From: Paenibacillus sp. yr247
GTDB taxonomy: Bacteria; Bacillota; Bacilli; Paenibacillales; NBRC-103111
Direction: 5' to 3'
NCBI RefSeq assembly: GCF_900103825.1
Contig: NZ_FNIF01000014.1
Coordinates: forward strand, 1-64,000
Length of the DNA: 64,000 bases
A program made the position numbers and the translations under genes. Below, one piece after another: positions 15,697 to 45,401 of the stretch. Within the stretch, counting starts at the first letter, position 1, and each line of letters opens with the position of its first letter. Below the pieces are notes generated by a model. It did no database searches and was not told where the DNA came from. It worked only from the letters and a program-made list of their open reading frames with translations.

Positions 15697-15740
15697 TGAC
15701 ATCTTCCTCTATATCTTTATATGGTGGGTAAATTTAAAAC

Positions 15741-18625: not shown

Positions 18626-19678
18626 TTAAGGAGTAACTTCAATAGTCTTTTTTTCGTTGTTGCTCTTGATCCCCAGTTCAATCAGCCGGATGGCCATACG
18701 CGCTTGCTCCGGTTTAACCTCAAGCTCCGTTCGGCCGATGATGGCGTTGTAAACATTTTGAAAATACGTTGTGTAAGAGCCCGGTAACGTCCGAATGCGG
18801 CCGATATAATGAAGGCCTCCGATGGTGGTGTTCAGCGTACCCCACATATCTTCCGGCTCCGCCCCCCAGTTCGGCTTCAAAGGCGTTTCTCCGTGGATCA
18901 ATGCTTGCTCCTGCGGATCAGTGCCGTATTTGACAAAAGAGCCGTTCGTTCCGTGAAGCGTATAACGCGGACCGCGCTCACGAACTAGTGCTGAGGACTT
19001 TAGCCGGACGCTTAGTCCGTCTTCGTAGCCTAATACAACATTGAAGTAATCGTCTGCGATGGCATTTTCACGAATGATGCGTACATCCGCTTGAATCGTC
19101 GCCGGCATACCGAACAGGGACAGCGCTTGATCGAGAAAATGAGCCCCGAGATCGTAGAACACACCGGTACCCGGTGCACCGCTGTCCCGCCAGTTTGCTC
19201 CCACGCTTGGACGGTACGAATCCCAACAAAATTCGGCTTCGCTGATCCTGCCCAACATGCCCTGGCGGACAATTTGCCGAACGGTAAGAAAATCGCCGTC
19301 CCAGCGTCGGTTATGGAACACGCTCAGCACTTTTCCCTTTTCCTTCGCAAGGGTGATTAGCTTATCCGCTTCATCGGTTGTCACCGTAAACGGCTTCTCT
19401 ACGATGACATTCTTTCCCGCCTGAAGAGCATCCTTTACGAATTCGTAATGATCGGTACTTGGAGTCGTGACGACAATCAGATCGATGCTGTCATCCCGGT
19501 ATAAATCCTGGACATCACCCACAACTTCCACCCAGGGATACCGTTCCTTGGCTGATGTGCCTCTTCTCTGCACCACTTTTGCCAGCTTCAAATCGGAAAC
19601 AGCTGCAATAACCGGCGCATGAAACGTTCTGCCCGCGAATCCGTAGCCGATTAAACCTACGCGAAGCTCGTTGCCCAT
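18626..19678 (-). CDS. Gfo/Idh/MocA family oxidoreductase (C)
   Basis: A 350-residue dehydrogenase of the YdgJ/YvaA-like branch. It begins VGLIGYGFAGRTFHAPVI, contains VVTTPSTDHYEF and EKPFTVTTDEAD (conserved Lys about 96), FHNRRWDGDF, and FYDLGAHFLDQALSLFG in the C-terminal domain. The FHNRRWDGDF motif is characteristic of scyllo-inositol / 1,5-anhydro-sugar type members. It is 116 bases downstream of the second permease pair and the first of the four metabolic genes following the transport operon. Confidence 0.9.
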   Translation of the reverse strand: MGNELRVGLIGYGFAGRTFHAPVIAAVSDLKLAKVVQRRGTSAKERYPWVEVVGDVQDLYRDDSIDLIVVTTPSTDHYEFVKDALQAGKNVIVEKPFTVTTDEADKLITLAKEKGKVLSVFHNRRWDGDFLTVRQIVRQGMLGRISEAEFCWDSYRPSVGANWRDSGAPGTGVFYDLGAHFLDQALSLFGMPATIQADVRIIRENAIADDYFNVVLGYEDGLSVRLKSSALVRERGPRYTLHGTNGSFVKYGTDPQEQALIHGETPLKPNWGAEPEDMWGTLNTTIGGLHYIGRIRTLPGSYTTYFQNVYNAIIGRTELEVKPEQARMAIRLIELGIKSNNEKKTIEVTP

Positions 19679-19794: not shown

Positions 19795-20769
19795 CTATTC
19801 CACCAGCCCGGTGCGCTCCACACCCTGGATGAAATATTTTTGCAGGAACAAATAGACAAGCAACAGCGGAGCGACGACAAGGAACGTGGCCGCCATTACG
19901 GTCGGCAGACCAAACGTTTCCATCCCGTGCGTGGCGGATGTTTCGTTCAGCGATTGGTACAACCGTGGAAGCATCATCGGCAGCGTGTATTTGTCCTCCG
20001 AAGTCAAATAGATGTTAGGTTCGAAGAAGTCGTTCCAGTGCCATACGAGTGACAGCAGCACGGTTACGACGATGGCCGGCGTCGTCAGCGGTAAAATGAT
20101 TCGCCAGTAGACTCGGAAACTGCCGCAGCCATCGACGCGAGCCGCATCCTCCAGCTCCCTGGGCAAATTGCGGAACAGCTGACGGAAAATAAAGATAAAC
20201 AGCGCCCCACGAAGTCCGTTAGCAAAAAATGCAGGTACAACGATGGGCGCGAACGTGTCCATCCAACCCATTGCTTTATACTGGATAAACAGCGGAATGA
20301 TCACCGTTTGCGGTGGAATGATGAGCGTAAACATAGCCAGCATGAAAAGCGCCTCACGCCCTGGAAATTTGATCCGGGCGAAACCGTACGCAACGAAAGA
20401 GCAAGCAAGCACTTGGCCGACAACACTGAGCAGGGATGTAGTCGCCGAGTTATAAAAATGGTCCCAGTACTTAAGGCCGACGATCCCGTACGCGTAGTTT
20501 TGCCACGCCATGCTTGTCGGAATCCACTTGATCGTGAAATTCAGCAGGTCGGGAGGCGTTTTTAGGGACGTTGTTATCATATAGATGAATGGATAAAGAA
20601 AAACGAAGGACAAATCGATCAGCAGGCAGTAAACGAAGATCCGGTACACGATGCCGAACCAGCGGCTTCTGCTCGCCAACCGGCTCGCAGTGAGCCGCAA
20701 GAAGCGGGGCATCCTTTCCAGAGCAGCATCAGGGTGCCGTGGCGCTGATATTCCATCTGCGTTTTTCAT
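19795..20769 (-). CDS. Carbohydrate ABC transporter permease, MalG type (pair 2)
   Basis: A 324-residue inner-membrane permease with six predicted helices and the MalG-type EAA loop: LPRELEDAARVDGCGSFRVYWRIILPLTTPA. It pairs with the MalF-type permease encoded 21 bases upstream. This is the second permease pair in the same operon, while only one solute-binding protein (27856) is present. No ATPase gene is linked. It ends the 11-kb DUF5696 operon. Confidence 0.92.
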   Translation of the reverse strand: MKNADGISAPRHPDAALERMPRFLRLTASRLASRSRWFGIVYRIFVYCLLIDLSFVFLYPFIYMITTSLKTPPDLLNFTIKWIPTSMAWQNYAYGIVGLKYWDHFYNSATTSLLSVVGQVLACSFVAYGFARIKFPGREALFMLAMFTLIIPPQTVIIPLFIQYKAMGWMDTFAPIVVPAFFANGLRGALFIFIFRQLFRNLPRELEDAARVDGCGSFRVYWRIILPLTTPAIVVTVLLSLVWHWNDFFEPNIYLTSEDKYTLPMMLPRLYQSLNETSATHGMETFGLPTVMAATFLVVAPLLLVYLFLQKYFIQGVERTGLVE

Positions 20770-20790
20770 AGACTTCGGTCACTCCTTTCA

Positions 20791-21651
20791 TCATTCTCCG
20801 GAATAAAAGATGAAGCGTCTGGACGCGGCGAATATGATAACAATGATCACAAAGATCAGCGCAAAATAGATCCATCCAAGCGCTGCCGCATAGCCGAGTT
20901 CAATCTTGACGAATCCGATATCGCGAATATACAGCATTATCCGGTTCGTTACATCGGTAAAGGAATCAACCAGCGTGTAAACCAAATTGAGTAAAATGAC
21001 GGGCGATACGAGCGGAAGCGTGATTTTCCAGAACATCTCCCATTCGGTTGCCCCGTCACATTTAGAAGATTCGTACAGAGACGGCGAGATACCCTGCAGC
21101 CCTGCCAAAAACAGCAAAATCTGCACTCCTGTTTTCCAAAAGATCAGCGTCAGGCGGCTAAGCAGGTCAAACACAAACTGTGAGAACGCCGGCCCCATAT
21201 AAATGAATGCGGACTCCGGCAAGCCGATCCCGTTTACCAGTGTTTTCTGGCCTACACCTGCATAAAGCAATTGCTGCAGCACCATACCTGAACCAATCAG
21301 CACCGGGAGGAAGAATGAGGCACGGAAAAACGCACGACCTCTGATTCTATGGTTCAGCAAGATGGCGATGAAGAGCGAGAACACAATGATTAAAGGCGTG
21401 TTGATGACGGTGTCCTGTATGACAGAGACGAACAGCGGCACAAACTGCGGATCCAGTACGAACGCATGTTTGAAATTCAACCAGCCGACGTATTTCAACT
21501 GAAAGCTTCCTACACCTTCCACATCATGGAAGCTTAACCACAACGAGTAGACGAGCGGAAACACCATGAACAGCAGAAACCCGACGAGCCACGGGGAAAT
21601 GTAGACGTAGCCGGCAAGCATCTTTTTTCGCTCCAAACCGATTCGCTTCAC
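20791..21651 (-). CDS. Carbohydrate ABC transporter permease, MalF type (pair 2)
   Basis: A 286-residue sugar permease with about six helices. The EAA loop reads YESSKCDGATEWEMFWKITLPLVSPV. It starts with GTG at 21651 behind GGAGGGG, two bases after the DUF5696 stop. Together with 19795 it would form a transmembrane channel. Because pair 1 (25991/26872) is encoded in the same transcript, either two transporters or a composite machine is built. Confidence 0.92.
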   Translation of the reverse strand: MKRIGLERKKMLAGYVYISPWLVGFLLFMVFPLVYSLWLSFHDVEGVGSFQLKYVGWLNFKHAFVLDPQFVPLFVSVIQDTVINTPLIIVFSLFIAILLNHRIRGRAFFRASFFLPVLIGSGMVLQQLLYAGVGQKTLVNGIGLPESAFIYMGPAFSQFVFDLLSRLTLIFWKTGVQILLFLAGLQGISPSLYESSKCDGATEWEMFWKITLPLVSPVILLNLVYTLVDSFTDVTNRIMLYIRDIGFVKIELGYAAALGWIYFALIFVIIVIIFAASRRFIFYSGE

Positions 21652-21653
21652 AT

Positions 21654-23888
21654 TTACCCCTCCTTCGGCAAGACAGCATAATTTTCTCCGAGTACGGAAT
21701 GGCCGTCAATTTGGGTGGCGTCTGTTCCATAGTTAACGATAACGCGTGTTCCGTCCTCGTAGGTCGTTTGAAACACACGGTCCTTCAGCTTGCGGTGGTC
21801 GACCATCGTCTGCGACCAGGAGCCGCGGAGCTTATCGCTCATTTCTTTATACGTCTTGACAACGGTGTTGGACCAACTGCTGTAACGGGAGCTGAACAAC
21901 TCAGCAAAGAACGTGTCCTTCAGTTCGTCCGAGTGTTGATAGGTGAGCTGATAAAACGGCATATATCCATATTCCACCATTTTCAAGAATTGCATCTGCG
22001 GATCGTGGAACAAATTCTGAGGTACGCCGGAATAAGGAATCACCCCGTGGATGACCATTTGGTAGAAGGGCACTGTTTCGTCCGTGAAGAAAAACCCGCT
22101 GTCCTGCATCCCCAAGCTGAAGATCCGGTCCGCGTAAGGAAGAACGTATGCATTCCCGCCTGTAACTGCCGCTCCGCCGAACTGAGAACGCGATTTGCTC
22201 ATCATCTCCATCCATTCGGCTGCGGTTCCTTCACGAGTCAGCGGATAAATGTCATTGTAATCAAAATAATTCATCGTTCCGAACGCATCGAATTGCATTC
22301 CTGAGACCGGCAGCGATTTTAAATTTTTGAGATAGGTGCTCTGGAAGAACAAGTTCCGCTTGCGGGCGTTCAACAAGTACGAAACATTATACGGATCCGT
22401 CACCGGAAAATGATTCGCCCCCTTGATGACGTCGTCGCGCTCCGAGAAGCTGCCATTCGAGCCTCCCTTAAACGCGTGTACAAAGTCGTCCGTCAAATAC
22501 AGTCGCACACCATTCTCTTTGGCCATGCGGGATAATGCTTCCAGGCCATTCATGCTGCCCAGCTGGGATGAAGCAGGCAGCTCCGAGGGCAGGAAGCCGA
22601 ACCCTTGCTTGGTCCAGCCAAGCAAATTCGCAGATATCGATTCGATCCCCTTATCGTGAAGATCCTTCAAGATTTGTGCGGCTTGCTCGAATGTGGTTGC
22701 CGGCAAAAACCGGTCGGACAGGATGCGTTGTTGTTTAATCCCCATCAGCAAGTCGACGCCGAGCGGAATAGGATCGCCTTTCTTCATTCGCGGAACCAGG
22801 CCCTTTTCTTTAAGTAAATAGCCGCGGTATGAGACGGCCATATGACTGTAATTGGCCTCATCCCCGCCATAGAACAGGTAACGTACCGTATGGTTTTCGT
22901 GCAGCAAATTTTTCTCAGCCCGAATCGCCAAGTTTCCGTTTTGTTTCACGGCTTCATAGGACCTGCGGTATGTTAATTCCGCCGAAGTTCTGTTCAAGTT
23001 AATCAAGTAACCGCTGGGGGCATAAACGACGGATGAATCGAATTCTCCCTCCGTAATGATTCCCATAAAGGCATTGTTCTTCACCTTCATGCCGAATACC
23101 GGCAAATACGCATTCTCCGGCCGATTGTAGTCGTTAAACGAAATCTGATCGGAGCCGAATACAGCTGAGCGATAGGGCTCCATATATTGAGGATGATTCG
23201 GTTTGAAATAAGATATAGCCCCAGGACCGTCAGGATAAAATCCGTATCCCTCGACTTCATCGCCGGCCGCTCCGAAGAACGGCAGCGGTGACAATCTCAT
23301 AATCACGTACTCCTCCGATTCTTTGATCGAATCCGCCGGCACGTGAACCTCCAACCCGCCGTTCTTCAGTTGAAATTGCATGGTGAAGCTCATTTTCAGC
23401 TGCTGCAGATCGTAATGCACCGATATCCCGTTCTCAATCGGCTTCGACTCCATCTTCGGCTGCAGCAAGACCGAGTTCGATTCCAGCACTTCCAATGTAG
23501 GCGTGTTCGGGTTCGTGTAGCTTAAATGGAAAATCGATTGGCTGTCCCCCTTCCACAAATCGTTCCCGTCTACATTAGTATCCTTGAGCGGATAGGCCGA
23601 ACGCCAAACGTGTCCATCCCGTTTATCCTTAACCTGAAGGGCCGAGTCCCGGGAACGGAAATACAGCTCCAACCGATCGGTCTCTGCAGCCTTGGTGAAT
23701 CCTTCATCAGACGGCAAAATGGTAACTCCGGCGGCAGCAGCATCAGTTTGTTTGGCTTGATTGGCTCCCTGAGCCACTGTTCCCCCAACGGACTGAGCGG
23801 GAAGGTGCTGACGAATTTTCATGGCAACGATGATGATAACGGCCAGCACGGCGATCCATAGGATCCGTTTGATCCAATTTTTCTTCAT
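21654..23888 (-). CDS. DUF5696 membrane-anchored protein
   Basis: A 744-residue protein with one N-terminal transmembrane anchor (KKNWIKRILWIAVLAVIIIV), a low-complexity linker, a beta-rich domain (about 60-370) and a TIM-barrel-like C-terminal half. The latter has glycosidase-like acidic segments: LYLTDDFVHAF, VSGMQFDAFGTMNYFDYND and FFTDETVPFYQM. This matches the DUF5696 family of Paenibacillus-type genomes, which as far as I know has no assigned function. The anchor and fold suggest a cell-surface glycoside-hydrolase-like protein acting beside the sugar importer; this is inference. Start chosen at ATG 23888 because upstream codons lack a ribosome site. Confidence 0.8.
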   Translation of the reverse strand: MKKNWIKRILWIAVLAVIIIVAMKIRQHLPAQSVGGTVAQGANQAKQTDAAAAGVTILPSDEGFTKAAETDRLELYFRSRDSALQVKDKRDGHVWRSAYPLKDTNVDGNDLWKGDSQSIFHLSYTNPNTPTLEVLESNSVLLQPKMESKPIENGISVHYDLQQLKMSFTMQFQLKNGGLEVHVPADSIKESEEYVIMRLSPLPFFGAAGDEVEGYGFYPDGPGAISYFKPNHPQYMEPYRSAVFGSDQISFNDYNRPENAYLPVFGMKVKNNAFMGIITEGEFDSSVVYAPSGYLINLNRTSAELTYRRSYEAVKQNGNLAIRAEKNLLHENHTVRYLFYGGDEANYSHMAVSYRGYLLKEKGLVPRMKKGDPIPLGVDLLMGIKQQRILSDRFLPATTFEQAAQILKDLHDKGIESISANLLGWTKQGFGFLPSELPASSQLGSMNGLEALSRMAKENGVRLYLTDDFVHAFKGGSNGSFSERDDVIKGANHFPVTDPYNVSYLLNARKRNLFFQSTYLKNLKSLPVSGMQFDAFGTMNYFDYNDIYPLTREGTAAEWMEMMSKSRSQFGGAAVTGGNAYVLPYADRIFSLGMQDSGFFFTDETVPFYQMVIHGVIPYSGVPQNLFHDPQMQFLKMVEYGYMPFYQLTYQHSDELKDTFFAELFSSRYSSWSNTVVKTYKEMSDKLRGSWSQTMVDHRKLKDRVFQTTYEDGTRVIVNYGTDATQIDGHSVLGENYAVLPKEG

Positions 23889-23907
23889 TTGTGAGGATGT
23901 CCTCCCC

Positions 23908-24555
23908 TCAGTTGAACTGTAAATACAGCACTTCGTTATAAACATCCTTCACGAACATGACGACGTGGTTGGTCAGCGCAAAGATCAAGCCGATCGTCGC
24001 CCAAAAGATAATGAGCGTAAACAGGCTCAACAGCGTGACGCCGATCGTTTTCTTCAGGGAATAGTCGTTCATTACTCCAAGATTGATAACCAATAATCCC
24101 CCGACCCACAGCCAGACGATCCATTGCAGCACAATGTATAAATACATTTCGTCGCGTGTCAGCACCAGTGTCAACGCTGCGATCGGGAGAGTAAATACGA
24201 TGTAAGGGATCATGGAATAAGCTACAGCGAGCAGGACGTTGCCGAAAAAGGTTTCACCGTCCATAATCGATGTGATCAAATAACAGCTGACCGCCCAAGA
24301 CAGAAGCGGCAGGATGATACGTGCGATTTCCAGCATCATATTTGCATCTTCGGGCTGCAGGCTGGCGACGTGGAAGGATGTCATCAGGATGGATGCGACC
24401 CGGACGGCAAACGTAAGCAGCAGCAGGATGAATGCGGCAGTGAAGCTTCGATAGCCGCGCAGCTCGCGAAATCCGTCGGCCGGGTGGAACAAGACGGCTA
24501 AGCCGATCTCGAGCGGCCGCCAGACGCGCACCAGTACAGAAGTATTCCCGCTCAA
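23908..24555 (-). CDS. YIP1-family membrane protein
   Basis: A 215-residue integral membrane protein with about five hydrophobic segments in the Yip1-domain layout: an N-terminal amphipathic part (LAVLFHPADGFRELR) and closely spaced helices. The start is TTG at 24555, eight bases after AAGGAGG and overlapping the stop of the NHL/TPR gene (TATTGA), so translation is coupled. Bacterial YIP1 proteins are of unknown function. Its fixed place inside a transport operon suggests an accessory scaffold for the permeases or the DUF5696 protein. Confidence 0.75.
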   Translation of the reverse strand: MSGNTSVLVRVWRPLEIGLAVLFHPADGFRELRGYRSFTAAFILLLLTFAVRVASILMTSFHVASLQPEDANMMLEIARIILPLLSWAVSCYLITSIMDGETFFGNVLLAVAYSMIPYIVFTLPIAALTLVLTRDEMYLYIVLQWIVWLWVGGLLVINLGVMNDYSLKKTIGVTLLSLFTLIIFWATIGLIFALTNHVVMFVKDVYNEVLYLQFN

Positions 24556-25979
24556 TAGCCTAACCTCCTTACGATCATTTGGGCCAACCCGCGGAGCCTC
24601 TTGAAGATGAAATAAAGAACATACAACAGCAAGGCGAGAATCAGCAAAATCCAACCGAAGTGGTTCTTCATATATTGTCTGCGGTACTGCCCAAAGGCGT
24701 CGGAGTAGCCCTCCTGGTCCCCGGCCAACTTAAATTCGGCCATCGATTCCTGCCATCGCTCCTGCTTATAAAGCGCCTTCGCCACCCCGCGATGTGCGAG
24801 CGGATAATTCTCATCGATCTGCAGCACCTCATACCACGGCTTCAACGCTTCTTCGTAACGTCCGTTGAAGTATAGCGCGCTCGCCTGATGAATCAATTCC
24901 GAGAAGCGCGTCGATTCGAATACCTGAATGTTATTGCGGTCCCGGTCTAAAACGAAGAGTCGCCCTTGCCGGTCGACCCCGATGCTTGAAGGATATTCGA
25001 ACGTTCCCTTTACACTCCCGTGTCCGCCAAATACGGCGAGCAGATTGCCTTCCTGGTCGTACTGGTAAATTTTTCGCGTTGTGGCGTCCAATGCATTGAT
25101 GATGCCGTATTGATCCACCGCGATGTCGACGAAATAAGGAAGCGCCAACGAGCCGGATTCAATCGACTTCTCCCCGTAAAACGTGTCTTTCTTAAAAATG
25201 TTGATCCCCAGCGCGTTTAATTTTTTGATTTGATCCTTATCGATGAGTACCGTCGGAGAGTAGAGGTATCCTTCCTCATCCATCGTCAAATTCGCATGCT
25301 GGGGCGGAACCGCCTTGCTCAGCTGCTCTTTCTGTTCCGGTGTCGCCAAGAGCCGGATAAGGAGCTGCTGCCAGCTGAAAGGAACGTGATTGGCCGCGAT
25401 GTAGCCGCGGAATTGATTGTTGGCGTCAATCATAATGAAACCGTTCGGGTCATTGCGATCCAGTACATTCAAATATCCTCGCTTATCGATCAACACTTTG
25501 CTCGGTGAAAAGTTGGCGTTCCCCTTCATGAGTGACGTCTTCGGCCGAACGAACTCCTCAATTTTAGCGCCCTTCGGATCGAGGTGGATGATCTTGCCGT
25601 TTCCTGTATCGGCGACGAACATATCGCCCAATTCATCGACGAAGATGCCTTCAGGTCCGTTAAGCTTTACCCCCTGCTCTTCCCCGAATATTCCAAGCAC
25701 GCGGCCATTCGGATCAAGTTTTACGATCCGGTTGTTGCCCGTATCGGCCACGTACAAAAGTCCTTTCGAATCAATAAACAAGTCGCTCGCTTTATTAAAC
25801 GGTTTCTGCCCGATATTCATGATAACCTCTCCGACCGTATACGCTAGCGGGATCGGCACTCGGTAATCATGAAGCGGATCGCGTGTATAGGATATTTGCG
25901 GCATAGCGCCGACAGGTTCACCTACAAGCAGCAGCAGAAAGACGAGGCAAAAAAAACATGCCGAGGCGCGTCGTAACAT
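24552..25979 (-). CDS. NHL-propeller and TPR membrane protein
   Basis: A 475-residue exported protein. Residues 1-25 are a signal peptide (LVFLLLLVGEPVGA). Residues about 60-350 hold NHL repeats of the form DLFIDSKGLLYVADTGNNRIVKLD, GIFVDELGDMFVADTGNGKI and SSIGVDRQGRLFVLDRDRNN, which build a beta-propeller. Residues about 370-440 are TPR-like helices (YFNGRYEEALKPWYEVLQID). A C-terminal transmembrane helix (GWILLILALLLYVLYFIF) and a basic tail follow. It should display a propeller outside the membrane, possibly binding glycan or the solute-binding protein. GGAGGTGAGACG precedes the ATG. Confidence 0.82.
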   Translation of the reverse strand: MLRRASACFFCLVFLLLLVGEPVGAMPQISYTRDPLHDYRVPIPLAYTVGEVIMNIGQKPFNKASDLFIDSKGLLYVADTGNNRIVKLDPNGRVLGIFGEEQGVKLNGPEGIFVDELGDMFVADTGNGKIIHLDPKGAKIEEFVRPKTSLMKGNANFSPSKVLIDKRGYLNVLDRNDPNGFIMIDANNQFRGYIAANHVPFSWQQLLIRLLATPEQKEQLSKAVPPQHANLTMDEEGYLYSPTVLIDKDQIKKLNALGINIFKKDTFYGEKSIESGSLALPYFVDIAVDQYGIINALDATTRKIYQYDQEGNLLAVFGGHGSVKGTFEYPSSIGVDRQGRLFVLDRDRNNIQVFESTRFSELIHQASALYFNGRYEEALKPWYEVLQIDENYPLAHRGVAKALYKQERWQESMAEFKLAGDQEGYSDAFGQYRRQYMKNHFGWILLILALLLYVLYFIFKRLRGLAQMIVRRLGY

Positions 25980-25990
25980 CGTCTCACCTC

Positions 25991-26857
25991 CTACGATTTA
26001 ATGCCGGAGTACGCCATCGTATTGATCACCATTTTCTGAAATGCAAGGAAAATCAAGATCGGCGGCAAGGTCACGAGCAGCGTACCCGCGGCCACCGCTC
26101 CGGAGCGGGCCACGGTGCCGGGCCCTCCGGCCAGCGTCTGCAAGGCAAGCGGGAGCGTCTTCATCGATTCGCTCGTCGTAAACACAAGCGGCGTGAAATA
26201 ATCGTTCCAATTGGCGATGAATGCAAAAATGATCAGTGTGGCCCAAGCAGGACGGCATACGGGCATAACCACCCTCCAAAAGATTCGCCATTCCGAGGCC
26301 CCGTCGATATGCGCGGCTTCAAGAAGCGCATCCGGGATTTGATCGATGAATTGCTTCATCAAAAAAATGTTATATGCCACCGCCAGCTTAGGCAGTACGA
26401 GCGACCAATATGTATCCAGCATCCCGAGGTTGGAAATGACCATATAGGTCGGAATTTGCGTCACCTGGGGTGTGAACATGAGCGCTGAAATAATGACGGC
26501 GAATAAGGCGTTTGCTCCGGGCAGACGGTATTTGGACAATACATAGGCACCCAAGCAGCAGATCACGAGCGTCCCTACGACGATGGTGGCAGAAACGAAT
26601 ATGCTGTTGAAGATGTACCTTGTGAAAGGTACGATCGAGGTATCCGTCGCCGTCAGCAGGTCGAAGAAGTTGCGCATCGTCGGCTTGTGTACGAAGAACC
26701 GCGGCGGGTACAGAAACAGCTCGTCCAGCGGCTTGAATGCCGTAGAAACCATGTATATAATCGGCATTGCGGTGAACGAGACAAGCGCCATGATGAACAC
26801 ATACAATAGGGCGCGTTTCAACGACGCAGTCAACTTTCCGGCGCGAATGATCGGCAT
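25991..26857 (-). CDS. Carbohydrate ABC transporter permease, MalG type (pair 1)
   Basis: A 288-residue permease with six helices and the EAA loop PDALLEAAHIDGASEWRIFWRVVMPVCRP. The ATG at 26857 is preferred because AGGGGGAG lies eight bases upstream; a GTG at 26875 overlapping the previous stop is also open. It forms a pair with the gene at 26872 and is followed after 11 bases by the NHL/TPR gene. Confidence 0.92.
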   Translation of the reverse strand: MPIIRAGKLTASLKRALLYVFIMALVSFTAMPIIYMVSTAFKPLDELFLYPPRFFVHKPTMRNFFDLLTATDTSIVPFTRYIFNSIFVSATIVVGTLVICCLGAYVLSKYRLPGANALFAVIISALMFTPQVTQIPTYMVISNLGMLDTYWSLVLPKLAVAYNIFLMKQFIDQIPDALLEAAHIDGASEWRIFWRVVMPVCRPAWATLIIFAFIANWNDYFTPLVFTTSESMKTLPLALQTLAGGPGTVARSGAVAAGTLLVTLPPILIFLAFQKMVINTMAYSGIKS

Positions 26858-26871
26858 ACTCCCACTCCCCC

Positions 26872-27828
26872 TCACTCTTCTTTGGACGAAAACAGTCTCA
26901 TAGCGATCCGTCCGAGGCCGAAGGTTACAAAAAACAGCACGACGGCGATGGAGGACGCATAGCCAAGCTCAAAGCGGATAAATGCATAATCGTAAAGATG
27001 GCTGATGATCGTGTGACCGGCATAGTTCGGGCTCGGCATGCCGGCCATCGCGACGGCGATATCGAAGACGCCGAACGAGGCCACGATCGCGTTGACCGCC
27101 CCGAACAGCATTTGCGGCTTCATGAACGGAACTGTGATATACCAAAGCTCCTGAAACTTATTGCGGATTCCGTCGATTGCTCCCGCCTCATACAGCTCTT
27201 TAGGGACGTTCTGCAAACCCGCCAGAAAGACGAGAAATCCGGTTCCCATACTCATCCAGAGAGATACGATGATAACGACTGGAAGGATCGTCTTCGGATT
27301 GTCTACCCATAGCACCGGCTCGCTGATGATACCCCAATTCAGCAGCCAGTGGTTCAACATTCCGTAGCGGTCACCCGAGAAAATATACAGCCATACGACC
27401 GAAAGCGCGATGGAACTCGTAATGGAAGGCACATAGAAGGCGAACGCGAATATCGATCGGCCGCGCAGCTGGTTGATCACCCAAGCGAGCACGAAAGATA
27501 ACAAATAGCTGATTGGCCCAGTAACAACGGAAAAAATGAACGTATTTTGAATCGCCTTGATAAAGATGTCGTCATCCAGGAACAAGATCTTATAGTTGGT
27601 CATTCCGATCCAGCGGGCGGGTTGAAGCATATTATAGTAAGTGAGGCTCAACCGAATGGAATCAAGAACCGGAACGACCGTAAATACAATGAACAGAACC
27701 AAGAACGGGCTAAGGAACAAGTAACCGGTCAGCACCTTTTTCCAGCGCGGCGACAATTTCAGAATGCTTCGTTCCCTGCGCTGCAGCGCCGGCCGCCCCG
27801 TCTGTACATTAGGAATGCCGCTTAGCAT
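26872..27828 (-). CDS. Carbohydrate ABC transporter permease, MalF type (pair 1)
   Basis: A 318-residue sugar permease with an N-terminal cytoplasmic tail, six helices and the EAA loop PKELYEAGAIDGIRNKFQELWYITVPFMKP. It starts at ATG 27828 behind AGGAGGG and lies 27 bases downstream of the large solute-binding protein gene, the usual order for SBP-MalF-MalG transporters. Confidence 0.92.
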   Translation of the reverse strand: MLSGIPNVQTGRPALQRRERSILKLSPRWKKVLTGYLFLSPFLVLFIVFTVVPVLDSIRLSLTYYNMLQPARWIGMTNYKILFLDDDIFIKAIQNTFIFSVVTGPISYLLSFVLAWVINQLRGRSIFAFAFYVPSITSSIALSVVWLYIFSGDRYGMLNHWLLNWGIISEPVLWVDNPKTILPVVIIVSLWMSMGTGFLVFLAGLQNVPKELYEAGAIDGIRNKFQELWYITVPFMKPQMLFGAVNAIVASFGVFDIAVAMAGMPSPNYAGHTIISHLYDYAFIRFELGYASSIAVVLFFVTFGLGRIAMRLFSSKEE

Positions 27829-27855
27829 ACCGTATCCCTCCTCTCGTGCGGTATA

Positions 27856-30831
27856 TTAGGGAGAAACTCCGAATTCTTTTTGCTTCGCTTCAAGTTCTTT
27901 GTTGATGTCTTTGACTGCTTGCTCCAGCGACTCCCTCACGTTCTCGCCGCTTAACACAACCCGGTTCCACGCGTTGGCAATATGCCTTGTCGTGAAATAA
28001 CCACCGGGGACGAACGGCTGCTCCTTAAAATATTTCCACCCTTCGCTTAGCGCCTTCAGATCTTCCTCCGGCCACGGAAGCTGTGAGAACGCCTCCATGT
28101 TGGCCGTGTTCCAGCGCGCTTCTACGCCGAGCAGCGCTTCCAGCTCCCGGCCAAACTGGGCTTGCACATCCTTGCTGGTCCACCACTTCAAAAACTCCCA
28201 AGCTTGCTGCTGCTTCTTCGACTGCTTAAAAATAACGACGGATTGTACCTGACCTCCCGCAGTACGGTCGATTTCTCCGTTCGCCTGAGCGTGTCCGGGT
28301 GCGGCGGCGATACCCCAGCGTCCCGCCAATTCAGGCGCTGCAGTCGACAGCAGGACGTAGGTCCAATAGCCAGATAAGCCAATGGGCATTTCACCCGTCC
28401 TAAACCGGTTAAACAGATCGGCATAGATGGGAAACTTATAGTTAGTATAGAGTTCCGTCCATTCTTTAAAAGCTTTGTAGGCTTCGGGAGTATTCAGTCC
28501 GGAGCTTTTGCCGTCCGCCGTATAAAATTCACCTTTGTTTTGGTATAAAAAAGTTGCAAAGCCGAGCGGCGAACGGTCCTGCGGATTGGTCGGCGGGTAA
28601 TAAAACTGCATGCCGTTCTGCTGCAGCACGGGTATCATTTCAGCCACTTGATCCCACGTCTGCGGGACGGACAGCCCGAGCTCTTTCAAGATGTCTTTTC
28701 GATAGATCAAAATGTTGAAGTCCTGCGTCTCCGGCAGGGCGTACACGCCTTCGTTGTACCGGAAAGGCACCATGGCTCCGGAGAGAAACTGCTTCTCTAC
28801 GCTGTCATAGCCCGGCAGCTTCGACAGATCCACGGCCGCGTCCCGAATTGCAAACTCAAGCGGCAGCTGTTCGCCGACACCGGTAGCGACATCCGGTGCT
28901 TTGCCTGAACTGGCGGCCAGAAGAAGCGTGTTGACCGAGCCGGAGTTTAATTGGCCGGCGGGAAGCGTGTTAATGTTCACCCGAATTCCCGTCTTTTTCG
29001 TGAAATCCGATTCAATCATTTCTTTCATGATTTCCGCCCATTCCCGGCCACGACCGACCCAAACGTCAAGGACGTCATCGTCTCCTTTTCCGCCGGATCC
29101 ACCCTTATACACGCTGCCGATACCGGTGTAATCTTTGCGGAACGAAGTAAAAAAGTTCTTCAACGTGCTGCCCATTTTTTCCCATATGTTGGATTTGACA
29201 CCGGGCCATTTCACGTCGGGAGCGCTGATCAGGAAATAATCCATGACAAGCGGCTGATTTTGCAGATCGATCAACCAGGTGCCCAAATTTGTCAAGCTGT
29301 TGTTTAAATCGTCCAACTGACGCGGAATCGAATCCGGTTTGAGGACCATGCGATCAAACAAGTTTTTCATCATCAGCAGACTGTTCGCCATGCTCGTATC
29401 TTCCTGAGAAATCGCGCGCAATGCGTCGATCTGCAGGCCAAGATTGCCGGCTAACGCCTGAATATCTTCCAGCAGTCCCGGAATACGCTTATCCAGCTCG
29501 TATTCGTAATTCGGATCGGGCGTAGGTCCGGTTACCATAATAATCCGGCGGATGATGTCAGAAAGCTTCTTCGAGTCCGTAGTCAGCGATTCGACGATCG
29601 GCTGGAACGGTCCGATTTGCGCTACCATCGTCAGCTTGTGCTCACCTTTCGTCAAATGCACAAGATACGGCTCGTTCGCGCTTTTGCCGAGCGTTTCGAT
29701 GCGCCAATCACGGGAATAAGTAAAAGGATACAGCTCCAACTCCTTAAAAGGCGATTTACCGTCAATCTGGATTTGCCGATAGGAAGGAAGCCCGTTTCCC
29801 CACCACTCGCCTACTTTCAAGCCGATTTTGTAAAGGCCGTCCTCCGGAACCGTGAAGCTCCAGGCCGCGGATTGTCCGCCTTTACGCCAGCGCCAATCGC
29901 CGAACACGTTCAGCCGGAATTTCAGCTCGCTCGCAGGCTCGACCAACGGATCGCCATTCGATTCCATGCGGACGGTGGGATCGGATTTGACCGGATTGTT
30001 CTCCGCCTGAACCTTGATGTCCACCTTGCTGACCGGCTTAAACCCGGAAGCGTCGTAAGAACTTTTAACCTTGGCGTAATCCGGTGTTTCCAACGCCGGA
30101 GCAAGCCTGATTTGATCGAATGAAACCGGTTCCTGTATAAAGCCCATGCGAATGACATGCTTGCCTGCACTTAATGAAAATTGAAAAGGCTCCGCGTACA
30201 ATCCGTTGCCGTCCGTCAGCGGTGCGCTGACCCAAGCCGCTTTCTCAACTTGGCTCGGCCGTACGTCATCACCCTGGTTATTCTGCGTTGGTTTCCCTTG
30301 GTCCGCCCAAATTCGATAAAAGTATAATCGTTGAGCTTCACGGAAAGGGGCGTCGCCGTCAATGGACAGCGACCGTTCGATGGGCAGCCGTTTGCCGGGC
30401 ATCGGATAATAATCGAAGGTCAGATTATACAAGCCGCTTGCAGGAACATCGACGGTCCATTCGATCCAGTCCGTGCCTTTCTCCCAAACGAGTGTCGGTT
30501 CGGATCTGTCCCCTACAACTTGGGAAGTAAGAGCCGTACCTCCAAAGGCCGAATAGGAATTGGCAGGAAATATGAGATCCTTTACGGAGTCTTGACGGTT
30601 ACCCGTTTGCTTGTATTGCCCGGCAACTTGCCTATAAGTCGGTTTTAAAATGGAATCTACATCAAATTGATCGGATGTTGCCTTGCTTTGGTTGCTATAG
30701 CGGTCTCGAAGCCGCTCTGAGGCTTCCATATGCTGGATTGCGCTTCCGATCGTCATGCTAAGCAACATAAGCGTCAGCGCGACGCCCGTTATTTTCTTCC
30801 AAATCGAGCCTCTGGGGAAAATGTGAATCAA
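27856..30831 (-). CDS. Giant membrane-anchored solute-binding protein with two beta-sandwich modules
   Basis: A 991-residue protein, about twice the usual length. An N-terminal transmembrane segment (ITGVALTLMLLSMTIGSAI) lacks a lipobox Cys. Two carbohydrate-binding-like beta-sandwich repeats centre on about residues 130 (VPASGLYNLTFDYYPMPG) and 330 (VPEDGLYKIGLKVGEWW); each has an IDG-PF turn. A helical region (about 430-560) follows, then a family-1 solute-binding domain from about 585 (DVLDVWVGRGREWAEIMKEM). TTG start at 30831 behind GGGGTGAAC. It likely tethers and captures a polysaccharide product for the permeases downstream. First gene of the DUF5696 operon. Confidence 0.87.
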   Translation of the reverse strand: MIHIFPRGSIWKKITGVALTLMLLSMTIGSAIQHMEASERLRDRYSNQSKATSDQFDVDSILKPTYRQVAGQYKQTGNRQDSVKDLIFPANSYSAFGGTALTSQVVGDRSEPTLVWEKGTDWIEWTVDVPASGLYNLTFDYYPMPGKRLPIERSLSIDGDAPFREAQRLYFYRIWADQGKPTQNNQGDDVRPSQVEKAAWVSAPLTDGNGLYAEPFQFSLSAGKHVIRMGFIQEPVSFDQIRLAPALETPDYAKVKSSYDASGFKPVSKVDIKVQAENNPVKSDPTVRMESNGDPLVEPASELKFRLNVFGDWRWRKGGQSAAWSFTVPEDGLYKIGLKVGEWWGNGLPSYRQIQIDGKSPFKELELYPFTYSRDWRIETLGKSANEPYLVHLTKGEHKLTMVAQIGPFQPIVESLTTDSKKLSDIIRRIIMVTGPTPDPNYEYELDKRIPGLLEDIQALAGNLGLQIDALRAISQEDTSMANSLLMMKNLFDRMVLKPDSIPRQLDDLNNSLTNLGTWLIDLQNQPLVMDYFLISAPDVKWPGVKSNIWEKMGSTLKNFFTSFRKDYTGIGSVYKGGSGGKGDDDVLDVWVGRGREWAEIMKEMIESDFTKKTGIRVNINTLPAGQLNSGSVNTLLLAASSGKAPDVATGVGEQLPLEFAIRDAAVDLSKLPGYDSVEKQFLSGAMVPFRYNEGVYALPETQDFNILIYRKDILKELGLSVPQTWDQVAEMIPVLQQNGMQFYYPPTNPQDRSPLGFATFLYQNKGEFYTADGKSSGLNTPEAYKAFKEWTELYTNYKFPIYADLFNRFRTGEMPIGLSGYWTYVLLSTAAPELAGRWGIAAAPGHAQANGEIDRTAGGQVQSVVIFKQSKKQQQAWEFLKWWTSKDVQAQFGRELEALLGVEARWNTANMEAFSQLPWPEEDLKALSEGWKYFKEQPFVPGGYFTTRHIANAWNRVVLSGENVRESLEQAVKDINKELEAKQKEFGVSP

Positions 30832-31848: not shown

Positions 31849-34335
31849 TCAGAGTTCGATCAAATTATTTTCTTGAACCTCTTGCTCGGCTGAGAGCGGA
31901 ATACGGAATGTCTTGATCTCGCATTTCCCGAATCGCGCACTCCATTTCCGTTCGAGCATAGGAATTTCTATCGTTGCTAATGCTTCTTTGCCCGAGGTTT
32001 CGTAGCAGCGTAGGATATAGTCCTGTCCGTCCTCCGCTTTTTTGAATGCCGTGACGACAATTTGCTCCGAGGAGACTCGAATCCCTGCGAAACTTTGCGG
32101 CAGCACACCGCGATGATACGTCTCCACGATAGAGACTGGCGGGACATTTAATTCGTAGGCTTTTTTTACAACCTGGGCATCCTGCCAACTGCCGGCGTGG
32201 GGAACCAATCCATAATTGAATTCCTGGACGCCTTGATCCATAAATTCGCACCATTCGTCCCTGACGCCAAAGTGATCCGCAAAGATGGGACTGCGAACGA
32301 CCGTCATCCTAATCTCATTCTCGAATACATCGAAGCTGTATTTGCTGTCGTTCACTAAAGCCAACCCGTAAGTTTGATCCGCTGTTCCTTCCGTTAGGCC
32401 TGTGACGTCGATCCACTGCTGCCCCGGTTCTTCTTCCCCATTCGCGGGACGCTCGATATGTCCGTACGGAATTTCGTACGTTGCTTTCATTTGCTCTACG
32501 TTTACTGGAAAAGAAAGCTTGAGCATTTTGTGCTCTTCGCGCCAATCTAACTTTACTTTAACTTCAATCTCGGGGCGGTCCTGATATAGAATAAAATCTT
32601 GCCGCAGCACCGAGCGGTTGTAACGGCTCGTCACTCGAATTCTGGCGCGCAGAGGTCCTTTTTCCAACAGGCGAATCTCAGCATCCGCAAATTTGCCGAT
32701 TTCGTTCCGGAACTTAAAAATGCCATGACTCCATGTGTCACTATCGTGCTCGTCGATGACGACCGGCACGGCGCCTCTGCCTTTGAGCACGTCTTGCCCC
32801 TGCCTCTTATCGATCAACCGTTTGATATACCCGGTATGCGGCTCAAGCTCCAGTCGGACGTAATCGTTTTCCAGCACGTTCTCTTCTGTTTGCAGAGCTA
32901 AATGAGATGCCTCCGCTTCCTGCGGTTTGTCCCGATACATCCAGTAGACGCGGTACCCGAAAGCGGGAATTTCGCCCATAAACAAAGTGTCCCACTTATC
33001 GGCGGAGCCATTCGTTCTGGAGCCCCTCACCGTTTGCACGCATACCGGAGTTCCCTGATCGTCCGTGATGCCTCGCACGTTCTTGTTGACTTGAATAGGC
33101 GCCTTGATGTCCCAGGAGAGCGGATTGAAAACGACGAGAGGAATTCCCTTGTCCTCCTGCTCCCAAAGCACCCAATCCTTGTCCTTGCTTAACGAGGCGA
33201 CGCCTTCCCGCATCGTATTGATGGACCACGATATTTTTTGCACCGCTGCGTTCAGCGTGACCGAAGCAATATGAAGGGATTCGCCATAAGCCTCGCGGGC
33301 GTCCTGATAAGCCTCCTTAATGCTGCAACCTCCCATAATATCGTGGAAATGGTTGAACATGACATTTTCCCAGCCGTGCTGCAGCTTCTCACCCGGGTAT
33401 GGCAGCGTAAGCATGTGATGGGCCATCGTTACGAATTTCTCCGCAGTAAGCAAGCGGTGTTCGGCACGGCGATTGTTCGCTTTCGTTTCGGCATGGGTGG
33501 AGTAACATCCGCTCGCATGGTGCTGAAGATCGTCCCTGTGAATCGGTATGGATTCGCTGTGCAAAGCGCTTATTTCCGAAAAATAGCGATTGGGTGAGCT
33601 TAAGACGATCTTATCCGCACCAAGCTCTTCCTGAAGACGATGAATCGTCTGCAGGTTCGCGATCGTAGGTCCGCCCCCGTGGTTGCCGACGCCGTAAAAA
33701 TTCATATAACTGCATTCATGCTGCTCAGCTAAAGCTGCCACGGCGCGCGTCTTTTGTTCAACAGGATCGCCGTCCTTCCACCAGTTGCCGTAGCTGTAAG
33801 GGATTCGGAAGGTCATAACGCGGCTGCCGTCGCCGCTTTCCCACCAGAACAAGTCGCTGTCCATCTGCTTTTCATGCTCTCCGGGCCGCATAAATACATA
33901 GAAATCCATACCGCTTTTCTTTAATAATTGTGGTATCATGCCATGGTGCCCGAACGAATCGACATTATAGCCGACTTTAGCCATGATGCCGAATTTCTCC
34001 AAGTAGTAACGTTGGGAATAAAGGCTATGGCGCGCGAATGACTCCCCCGAGGGGATGTTGCAGTCGGGCTGGATCCACCAGCCCCCGACTACAACCCATC
34101 TTCCTTCCTCAACCCTCTGCTGAATCTCGATAAACATTTCCGGAGCGTTCTCTTCTACCCACTTATAGTAAGCAGCGCCGGCGCACGTAAAAATAAAATT
34201 GGGAAATTCCTTCAACCGGTCCAGCGCAGAGCGGAACGTCGCCTTGATTTCCGCATATCCCTCCTGCCACTGCCATAGCCATACCGGGTCCAAATGTGCA
34301 TTGCCGATCATATGGATGCGGGTCTCTTGCGACAT
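31849..34335 (-). CDS. GH38-family alpha-mannosidase
   Basis: About 828 residues, full length for a bacterial GH38 enzyme. The N-terminal catalytic domain has the zinc motif GNAHLDPVWLW and the nucleophile region GYNVDSFGHHG (Asp). A helical domain with HNHFHDIMGGCS and a long beta-rich C-terminal half follow. No signal peptide, so it hydrolyses imported alpha-mannosides in the cytoplasm. ATG 34335 is chosen because AAGGTGG lies eight bases upstream; earlier GTG/ATG codons are too close. It follows the epimerase gene by about 30 bases. Confidence 0.9.
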   Translation of the reverse strand: MSQETRIHMIGNAHLDPVWLWQWQEGYAEIKATFRSALDRLKEFPNFIFTCAGAAYYKWVEENAPEMFIEIQQRVEEGRWVVVGGWWIQPDCNIPSGESFARHSLYSQRYYLEKFGIMAKVGYNVDSFGHHGMIPQLLKKSGMDFYVFMRPGEHEKQMDSDLFWWESGDGSRVMTFRIPYSYGNWWKDGDPVEQKTRAVAALAEQHECSYMNFYGVGNHGGGPTIANLQTIHRLQEELGADKIVLSSPNRYFSEISALHSESIPIHRDDLQHHASGCYSTHAETKANNRRAEHRLLTAEKFVTMAHHMLTLPYPGEKLQHGWENVMFNHFHDIMGGCSIKEAYQDAREAYGESLHIASVTLNAAVQKISWSINTMREGVASLSKDKDWVLWEQEDKGIPLVVFNPLSWDIKAPIQVNKNVRGITDDQGTPVCVQTVRGSRTNGSADKWDTLFMGEIPAFGYRVYWMYRDKPQEAEASHLALQTEENVLENDYVRLELEPHTGYIKRLIDKRQGQDVLKGRGAVPVVIDEHDSDTWSHGIFKFRNEIGKFADAEIRLLEKGPLRARIRVTSRYNRSVLRQDFILYQDRPEIEVKVKLDWREEHKMLKLSFPVNVEQMKATYEIPYGHIERPANGEEEPGQQWIDVTGLTEGTADQTYGLALVNDSKYSFDVFENEIRMTVVRSPIFADHFGVRDEWCEFMDQGVQEFNYGLVPHAGSWQDAQVVKKAYELNVPPVSIVETYHRGVLPQSFAGIRVSSEQIVVTAFKKAEDGQDYILRCYETSGKEALATIEIPMLERKWSARFGKCEIKTFRIPLSAEQEVQENNLIEL

Positions 34336-34365
34336 GTTCATCTCCACCTTCTGTAAATCCGTTGG

Positions 34366-36250: not shown

Positions 36251-37084
36251 TTATTTAATTCCTGAGAAAGTAATTCCTCGGATAAACGCCTTTTGAACGA
36301 AGAAATACAGAAGGATAATCGGAAGCGTAATCATGACCAGCGTAGCCATCATCATCTGCCATTCGGCCCCGTGTTGGGACTTGAAAGCCTGCATGCCGAG
36401 CATCAGCGTATATTGGTTCTCATCCGACAAGTAAATCAACGGTCCCTGATAGTCCGTCCAGCTGCCCATGAACTGGAATAAAGCAATCGTCAATAAAGCG
36501 GGACGGCATAGCGGAAGCATGATTTGCCAATAAATGCGAAGTTCGGAAGCTCCGTCAATCCGGGCTGCGTCTTCAAGCTCTTTGGGCAAGCCCATGAAAA
36601 ACTGCCGGAGGAGGAAGATGAAGAACGGAGCGCCGAAAAAGGCCGGCAGCCACAAAGGGATATTAGTCCCTACCCAGCCGAAGTTTTTGAATGCGATAAA
36701 AATAGGAATCATGGTTACCTGGTAAGGCAGCATCATGACAATGAGCGTAATCGCAAAAAGCGGCTTAGCACCCTTCCATGGAATTCTGGCTAAGCTATAA
36801 GCGACAAGTGGGCAGGATAATAAAACCGCCACAGTCGCCAGACCTGCAATCGTAACCGTATTCGACAAATATTTAAAAAAAGGAATATAGTCAATCGCTT
36901 TAGGATAATTGCTCCATTCCATAACGCTTGGAATCCACACAGGCGGCCAAAGAAACAATTCGCTGTTCGCCTTGAGTGAAGTGGAAACCATCCATAGAAA
37001 CGGCGACAGGAAAAAGGCGCCAACCACAATTAAAGAGAAATGAGCAAATACTTTTTGAAAACTTCCAAGTCTTGTGCTTCCCAT
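36251..37084 (-). CDS. Carbohydrate ABC transporter permease, MalG type (pair 3)
   Basis: A 277-residue permease with six helices and the EAA loop PKELEDAARIDGASELRIYWQIMLPLCRP. GAGGGGG precedes the ATG. It is coupled with the gene at 37100 and with solute-binding protein copy 2 (38191) into one importer. Confidence 0.93.
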   Translation of the reverse strand: MGSTRLGSFQKVFAHFSLIVVGAFFLSPFLWMVSTSLKANSELFLWPPVWIPSVMEWSNYPKAIDYIPFFKYLSNTVTIAGLATVAVLLSCPLVAYSLARIPWKGAKPLFAITLIVMMLPYQVTMIPIFIAFKNFGWVGTNIPLWLPAFFGAPFFIFLLRQFFMGLPKELEDAARIDGASELRIYWQIMLPLCRPALLTIALFQFMGSWTDYQGPLIYLSDENQYTLMLGMQAFKSQHGAEWQMMMATLVMITLPIILLYFFVQKAFIRGITFSGIK

Positions 37085-37099
37085 GACGATTCCCCCTCC

Positions 37100-38053
37100 C
37101 TATTCTTTTCCTTGATAATGGACCCAGCGTTTCTGAGAGACAAAGATTAACGCCGTTAAAATGACCACGATTAAGAAAAGAATCCAGGCCATGGCAGAAG
37201 CATATCCCATCTTTAAATAGCCGAAACCGTTCGTGTATAAATACATCACGTAAAACATCATTGAATTGGCTGGTGTACCCTGTCCGTTCGTGAGTGTGTA
37301 AGGCAGAACGAAATTTTGCAGAGCGCCGATGGTGCCAATAATCAAGTTGAAAAAGATGACTGGCGTTAACAGGGGCAACGTAATGGTCTTCGTCCGCTGC
37401 CATGCGTTAGCTCCATCCACTTGGGCGGCATCATAGTAATCTTGGGGGATATCCTGCAGACCCGCTAAATAAATAACGACCGCTTGCCCTGTCCCCCACA
37501 AGCTCATTAGAATTAAGGATGGCTTAGACCAAGCTTCACTTCCAATCCATGGCGGTCCGGAGATGCCGATCTGATCCAGCCAATAGTTCACAAGCCCGAA
37601 TTGCGGGTTTAACAGCCAGAGCCAAATGATCGTCGTCGCTACAGGCGGCACCAAACTGGGGATAAAAAATAAAGTTCTGTAAAAGCCTTGACCGCGAATT
37701 TTCAAATTCAGAAGGAGGGCTAGTCCTACACCTATCACTATGCTCAGCGGGACAAAAATCACCGTATAGTACAAGGTATTATAAATACTGACCCAGAAGA
37801 CCTTATCTTGAAAAAGTGCCGAGTAGTTATTGAATCCTACGAACTTCCCCGGCTCCAGGATGCTGTAGGAGGTTAAACTATAGTAAGCTGACATGAATAA
37901 CGGAAAGGCGTGAAAAAGAAGCAAACCGACAATCCATGGTAACGCGAAGATCAGACCGAACAGGCTGAGCTTTTTCTCGAACCGGGTTTTCCTTTTCTTG
38001 GCGACATCAACTAAAACTGTCATTTTTTTTGCGGGAGTTTCGATCGCAGACAA
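37100..38053 (-). CDS. Carbohydrate ABC transporter permease, MalF type (pair 3)
   Basis: A 317-residue sugar permease with a basic N-terminal tail (KKRKTRFEKK), six helices and the EAA loop PQDYYDAAQVDGANAWQRTKTITLPLLTP. The start is TTG at 38053 because AAAGGAGG lies eight bases upstream; the open frame runs seven codons further. An attenuator hairpin separates it from the solute-binding protein gene. Confidence 0.92.
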   Translation of the reverse strand: MSAIETPAKKMTVLVDVAKKRKTRFEKKLSLFGLIFALPWIVGLLLFHAFPLFMSAYYSLTSYSILEPGKFVGFNNYSALFQDKVFWVSIYNTLYYTVIFVPLSIVIGVGLALLLNLKIRGQGFYRTLFFIPSLVPPVATTIIWLWLLNPQFGLVNYWLDQIGISGPPWIGSEAWSKPSLILMSLWGTGQAVVIYLAGLQDIPQDYYDAAQVDGANAWQRTKTITLPLLTPVIFFNLIIGTIGALQNFVLPYTLTNGQGTPANSMMFYVMYLYTNGFGYLKMGYASAMAWILFLIVVILTALIFVSQKRWVHYQGKE

Positions 38054-38119
38054 TTCTATTACCTCCTTTTGCACGTCTATTCTGTGAGATAAACCTCTTT
38101 CGAGATCTTTTGAAGATGA

Positions 38120-38160
38120 TGCGGTAAAAGAGGGAGGGCTCAGCGTTCGCCCTACCCTCC
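38120..38160 (-). terminator. Attenuator between binding-protein and permease genes
   Basis: In minus orientation GAGGGTAGGGC pairs with GCCCTCCCTC across a 9-base loop, followed by TTTTACC. Such a leaky terminator typically makes the binding protein more abundant than the permeases. The paralogous locus at 5158-5190 retains only one arm. Confidence 0.6.
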
Positions 38161-38190
38161 TTATTTTTACTTTAATGCTAGTTATAGGAA

Positions 38191-44079: not shown

Positions 44080-44300
44080 TTGAACCTCTCATGACTAAAG
44101 TCACGAGATTCTTGGGTAGTCCCTTCTAACGAAGAGAAGTTTACCAAGCTAACCCTGTCGTTCCGACAGTTTGTGCAAAGGCTAAACAGCCAGTTTACAC
44201 GTTAAGCAGTCTTTTACCTTCGGCAAGAATATTTAGACTTGCATTGAAGTCTCTATCATGATGCGCTCCACAATTGGGACAGTCCCATTCGCGCAACTTT
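44080..44300 (-). ncRNA. Probable omega/reRNA of the TnpB element
   Basis: By family precedent the guide RNA overlaps the 3' end of tnpB and runs to the right end. Here the terminal hairpin (44107-44088) and GAGGTTCAA end at 44080, so the guide would be read from the flank: GAAAATACTATTTTAACAGG just upstream of the VOC gene. The RNA 5' end is a guess. Confidence 0.5.
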
Positions 44301-45298: not shown

Positions 45299-45401
45299 GG
45301 TGAAAACGGCCTCCTTTCGTTTTGGAATATACATCCATTATAGCACGTATGTTCGCTTTAAAGCATTGTTTATTGTTTGTACTCGTTTCCTAAACATGTG
45401 T

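Follow-up and report, generated by a model that had tools for sequence, protein, structure and literature searches.

A conserved Bacillota gene module with two CUT1-type permease pairs, a CBM-bearing solute-binding protein, a Yip1-NHL protein and a remote glycosidase relative, DUF5696

ATP-binding cassette (ABC) importers of the CUT1 type that use a shared ATPase, such as MalEFG with MsmX/MsmK, or Athe_2052-2054 of Anaerocellum bescii with MsmK (Athe_1803; PMC12710961), consist of a solute-binding protein (SBP) and two binding-protein-dependent (BPD) permeases with EAA loops, the ATPase often being encoded elsewhere. The same parts are found in a module of eight minus-strand genes at positions 19795-30831 of a 64,000-nucleotide stretch of DNA from Paenibacillus sp. 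yr247 (hereafter the window, contig C24 of the 6.25 Mb genome). As compared with such importers, however, the module has two permease pairs rather than one, an SBP of double size with two modules resembling carbohydrate-binding modules (CBMs), and additional NHL/TPR, Yip1 and DUF5696 proteins. Here, we report that these eight genes are one co-inherited unit across many Bacillota, a conclusion that is well supported, and we consider how this unit may work.

Conservation and co-inheritance of the eight genes

That the window holds a tight set of eight genes had been read from the sequence alone. This set is real, as all eight open reading frames (ORFs) were found intact at the coordinates and on the strand listed below, with Pfam matches to SBP_bac_1/8, BPD_transp_1, NHL, TPR, Yip1 and DUF5696:

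27856..30831, minus strand: CBM-bearing SBP (CBM-SBP), 991 aa, which starts with a hydrophobic anchor or signal lacking a lipobox, followed by two CBM35/CBM6-like modules (residues ~55-425), a helical linker and a CUT1 solute-binding domain (residues ~580-991)
26872..27828, minus strand: MalF1 permease, EAA loop intact
25991..26875, minus strand: MalG1 permease, EAA loop intact
24552..25979, minus strand: secreted NHL-propeller and TPR protein with a membrane segment at its C-terminus; most relatives have it as one fused protein with Yip1 (~700 aa)
23908..24555, minus strand: Yip1-domain membrane protein with 5 hydrophobic segments, TTG start corrected, overlapping the NHL stop
21654..23888, minus strand: membrane-anchored DUF5696 protein, remotely related to GH129/GH101 but lacking the GH129 catalytic pair, ATG start corrected
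20791..21651, minus strand: MalF2 permease, EAA loop intact
19795..20769, minus strand: MalG2 permease, EAA loop DAARVDG

The Yip1 gene most likely starts at TTG 24555, with a 4-base overlap with the NHL stop (TTGA), and the DUF5696 gene at ATG 23888, which is preceded by GGGGAGG. After both corrections, the intergenic gaps in the window range from -4 to +27 bases. Promoter-like and terminator-like sites at the locus were not clearly above chance, and the limits of the operon are therefore not set by them. The nearest named relative found, Paenibacillus alginolyticus DSM 5050, which was the sole return when genome contigs were scanned for relatives, has all eight genes on one contig, their proteins being 92-99% identical to those of the window. 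As the dN/dS values of the window genes against those of P. alginolyticus are 0.04-0.24, the eight genes are under purifying selection.

For gene order, we surveyed 60 loci, each a stretch surrounding a DUF5696 gene; 40 belong to the window's family and 20 to further families of Bacillota. The seven core parts were complete and in the same order, SBP-MalF1-MalG1-NHL-DUF5696-MalF2-MalG2, in 34 of these, and most parts missing from the remaining loci are artefacts of ORF calling or contig ends. The median spacing between neighbouring core genes is -4 to +17 bases, and copies of the module with near-zero spacing recur both in Clostridia and throughout the window's family. A rotated order, NHL-DUF5696-MalF2-MalG2-SBP-MalF1-MalG1, is seen in some Clostridia (L113 and, in part, L117 and L118) and divides the module into two sub-modules. 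Sub-module A would comprise the giant CBM-SBP with MalF1/MalG1. Sub-module B would join MalF2/MalG2 to DUF5696 and the NHL/TPR-Yip1 membrane protein, and frequently includes a stand-alone SBP.

Among 104 genomes of the window's family, we found 113 full-length DUF5696 genes. For 109 of these, a same-strand CBM-SBP gene lies upstream, at a distance of up to 8 kb in 89 cases and of 25-33 kb in the other 20; where inspected, the longer gaps contain GH42 and GH106 genes. All 59 family genomes with a full DUF5696 contain a CBM-SBP. DUF5696 is present in 37 of 398 Bacillota genomes (20 of 267 genera), and each of these 37 has a CBM-SBP, when a copy cut by the contig start in G221 is counted, while a full CBM-SBP without DUF5696 was seen in 2 of the 398. 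The Fisher p-value for this co-occurrence is 4e-50, which is not corrected for kinship. The sequence-only reading depended on these genes recurring together, and they do so widely in both sets. Moreover, when pairwise distance matrices were drawn up for each of the seven parts from 34 loci, their correlations were r 0.79-0.93, as compared with a permutation maximum of ~0.25, and the ties are strongest within each sub-module.

Importer parts and the NHL-Yip1 protein

The C-terminal 40% of CBM-SBP matches SBP_bac_1/8 in Pfam (PF01547, E 3e-29; PF13416, E 4e-28). For the N-terminus, no CBM35/CBM6 Pfam match was obtained by single sequence, and the ~370 residues gave weak profile matches (E 2.5e-5 to 1e-3) to chains carrying CBM35/CBM6-type modules, in agreement with the two beta-sandwich modules previously ascribed to this protein. 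The lipobox is absent in 43 of 46 relatives and a hydrophobic segment is found at the start; CBM-SBP is thus either anchored by this segment or secreted.

All four window permeases match BPD_transp_1 and make up two CUT1-type MalF/MalG pairs. The ATPase-coupling EAA loop is kept in all four (that of MalG2 begins with D instead of E) and, therefore, neither pair looks dead. The earlier remark that there is no ATPase holds for the window locus but not as a property of the system, since a MalK-type ATPase is encoded directly upstream of the module in ~15 of the 40 family loci and an MsmX-like ATPase, 61% identical, is encoded elsewhere in the window genome (G000:C37). Among the neighbours scanned, such operon-borne ATPases, with ABC_tran and OB_MalK matches, lie directly upstream of the SBP in 14 relatives.

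An ordinary orphan SBP (~430-500 aa, without permeases of its own) directly adjoins the module in ~24 of the 60 loci and is therefore a candidate second receptor for the second permease pair. Stand-alone lipoprotein SBPs, which may feed this pair, are found beside the module in L033-L036, L069, L102-L109 and L112-L117, with several in a row in L105.

The NHL and TPR assignments of the window protein come from Pfam, as does that of its Yip1 neighbour (PF04893, E 5e-11; 43 bits, with a cut-off of 28.6), in which five hydrophobic peaks mark the membrane segments. In most relatives, NHL/TPR and Yip1 form one protein, as confirmed by Pfam on four, and the Yip1 matches of the fused homologs reach E values down to 6e-24.

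DUF5696 and its catalytic positions

The window protein matches the DUF5696 Pfam model with E 1e-180, and the weak family matches of this model are GH129 proteins. A profile search of the PDB with DUF5696 returned two members of the GH101-type group, the alpha-N-acetylgalactosaminidase NagBb (GH129, 5WZN; E 1.7e-15) and the GH129-like anhydrogalactosidase DagB of Zobellia (5OPQ; E 1.5e-12), aligned over the N-terminal sandwich and the barrel. Weak GH13 matches in this search were set aside as short barrel matches. When repeated with 51 DUF5696 sequences, the search again gave the GH129/DagB similarity (range ~1e-12 to 1e-15). In hhalign, DUF5696 and Paenibacillus GH129 aligned with 99% probability over 546-551 columns. 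Judged by these profiles, DUF5696 is a remote GH129/GH101-type glycosidase relative and has hydrolase-type ancestry, in line with the comparison to glycoside hydrolases suggested earlier. Unlike these enzymes, it is membrane-anchored and is tied to an ABC importer. The positions equivalent to Asp435 and Glu478 of NagBb are not conserved in it.

We take Asp435 and Glu478 to be the catalytic positions of NagBb, and in our alignment these coincide with the YLD and SSE motifs. Asp435 has been confirmed as catalytic (PMC5698469). The Asp435-equivalent (nucleophile) column, the register of which is possibly 1-2 columns off, is acidic in 19 of 60 DUF5696 sequences, the Glu478-equivalent (acid/base) column is acidic in 17 and both are acidic in 5. 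There is no conserved acid between 545 and 561, and no acid with at least 95% conservation was found in columns 545-561 or 590-600 of the 60 sequences. In the window protein, D553 stands at or near the nucleophile site and Thr595 at the acid/base site (DUF5696 residue numbers refer to the longer 763-aa ORF). As the GH129 catalytic pair is not conserved, the suggestion that DUF5696 trims the glycan is not supported. E658, D562, D239 and D266 are, nonetheless, invariant or near-invariant, and DagB of Zobellia (PDB 5OPQ) keeps only the equivalent of Asp435 of NagBb and uses other acids (PMC5698469). Catalysis by DUF5696 should thus be considered unlikely, the conserved acids elsewhere and the relocated acids of DagB leaving it a small chance.

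Up to 11 or 12 DUF5696 matches occur in one genome of the window's family, and no DUF5696 relatives were found in viral contigs. Two genomes (G023 and G078, with estimated completeness of 90% and 84%, respectively) contain several broken DUF5696 copies with frameshift-like splits, reflecting either sequencing error or decay. Another GH-like relative is seen in two ~915-aa proteins (L073:1505-4255 and L076:1926-4655), which combine DUF6259 and F5/8 type C domains with a weak DUF5696 match.

Neighbourhood, possible working and known systems

The window also contains the following features around the module:

36251..39597, minus strand: ordinary CUT1 importer in the same gene cluster (MalG, MalF and a 468-aa SBP, the latter at 38191-39597)
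31849..34347, minus strand: GH38 alpha-mannosidase family enzyme, upstream of the module
18626..19678, minus strand: Gfo/Idh/MocA oxidoreductase, 116 bases downstream of the module
13804-15702: protein with a heparinase II/III-like C-terminal domain, in the same gene cluster, a possible polysaccharide lyase
44195-45334: IS605 OrfB (TnpB-like) transposase gene with a Cas12f1-like TNB domain

The Gfo/Idh/MocA oxidoreductase is probably a metabolic partner outside the conserved core. GH38 is found beside the module in L036 and L069 as well, while the neighbours are GH26 and a GH2-type mannosidase in L033, GH42 and GH106 in the L045/L050 group, and GH5, GH10 and GH32 in other loci. As these carbohydrate-active enzyme (CAZyme) neighbours vary by locus, the module looks like a general chassis for glycan uptake, with paralogues for different glycans. 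For the window, one can guess at a mannose- or uronate-containing glycan from the GH38, heparinase II/III-like, sugar isomerase-like and Gfo/Idh genes. In the GH42/GH106 subtype (L045, L050-L054 and L058), MalG2 is succeeded by a row of three small lipoprotein-like genes (228-259 aa).

The reading that we favour, at slightly better than even confidence, is that of a CUT1 importer in which a Yip1-NHL scaffold is combined with two receptors, two permease pairs and a DUF5696 that holds glycan and is, in the main, non-catalytic. At the cell surface, long or branched pieces of glycan would be held by the CBM modules and DUF5696. The NHL/TPR-Yip1 protein may dock the surface parts onto the pores, and both permease pairs would draw on a single MalK/MsmX-type ATPase, the gene of which lies beside the module in some relatives and elsewhere in the window genome. 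DUF5696, of GH129/GH101-type glycosidase descent, would serve as a glycan holder and not as a cutter in most members, that of the window included. The gene content and order, the co-occurrence and co-divergence, the intact coupling loops, the GH129 ancestry with its lost catalytic pair and the CAZyme-rich surroundings are observed, whereas the physical complex, the division of labour and the substrate are what we infer for the module. The sequence-only reading had also pictured one machine that binds, perhaps trims, and imports a large glycan; from this picture, a co-inherited and probably surface-anchored import module is retained on the basis of co-occurrence and CUT1 parts, while trimming is not.

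Several points weigh against such a single machine and should be considered. Two independent importers sharing one operon would yield an identical gene pattern, and the co-occurrence counts lack phylogenetic independence. In some Clostridial loci (L106 and L110), sub-module B is found without sub-module A nearby, with CBM-SBPs elsewhere in those genomes. The window has no orphan SBP, and the one ordinary SBP near the module is part of a complete importer ~5 kb upstream. E658, D562, D239 and D266 could form a different DUF5696 active site, and an AlphaFold model of DUF5696 from two near-identical rows (the window and L032) had a pLDDT of 30 and was discarded. We weighed the possibility of two separate CUT1 importers in one operon, with CBM-SBP delivering to MalF1/MalG1, a lipoprotein SBP (an orphan or, here, perhaps that at 38191-39597) delivering to MalF2/MalG2, and DUF5696 and NHL-Yip1 as accessory surface proteins outside any common complex. 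The orphan SBPs beside the module in ~24 of 60 loci, the rotation or 25-33 kb separation of the sub-modules in some loci and the peak of distance correlations within each sub-module are consistent with this arrangement. We nonetheless regard it as rather unlikely, as at the genome level the halves are almost never apart, unlike usual separate importers, and an adjacent orphan SBP is absent in many loci, including the window.

Still less probable is an active DUF5696 that trims the glycan at the surface prior to import by means of relocated catalytic residues. The clear GH129/GH101-type homology, the example of DagB, the four invariant or near-invariant acids and the 5 of 60 members with acids at both GH129 positions argue for such activity, whereas the Asp435 position, common to NagBb and DagB, is acidic in just 19 of 60 members and the acid/base position in 17, the window has Thr595 at the latter, and neither column range holds an acid of at least 95% conservation. 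It is, finally, highly improbable that the module is not a glycan importer and that NHL-Yip1-DUF5696 instead senses the state of the glycan or cell envelope while another type of cargo passes through the permeases. L040, L059 and L061 are indeed flanked by histidine kinase and response regulator genes, and glycan as the substrate is a prediction, but SBPs and permeases of CUT1 type, the CBM-type modules and the variety of CAZymes encoded nearby speak against a sensor.

With regard to described systems, the xyloglucan importer of Anaerocellum bescii was tried as a counterpart of the module and rejected as an ordinary CUT1 system, and no match to the module could be made for the unassigned C. 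bescii transporter Athe_0085-87 (PMC8579813). No published description of the module was found in the open literature searched; 'DUF5696' appears in no paper of the PMC full text, and nothing relevant was found on Yip1 with NHL or with carbohydrate transport. Returning to the single-importer reading, a conserved module whose paralogues accompany different CAZymes would give DUF5696 and a bacterial Yip1 protein a bacterial role, and would provide a testable example of a two-pore CUT1 importer. More tentatively, and with doubts that outweigh our confidence, the module may represent a class of ABC importer that has not been described before and is widespread among Bacillota, a Yip1-NHL scaffold joining two different permease pairs, a CBM-bearing SBP and a pseudo-glycosidase into one glycan surface machine.

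The corynebacterial maltose importer MusEFGKI is comparable to the module, as it is of CUT1 type and depends on an additional integral membrane protein, MusI. To our knowledge, MusI is unrelated to the module proteins and MusEFGKI has no second permease pair. In the SusCD-type glycan utilisation systems of Bacteroidota, glycan-binding proteins at the surface work together with a pore and are encoded in clusters with CAZymes, much as proposed here for the module, whereas the module is ABC-energised, spans a single membrane and shares no homologous parts with these systems. As far as we know, Gram-positives lack such outer-membrane machines, and little has been learned of the way in which these bacteria retain and take up large pieces of glycan. 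On present evidence, the module is best placed among the CUT1 importers, as a variant of these, and does not amount to a transporter of a new kind.

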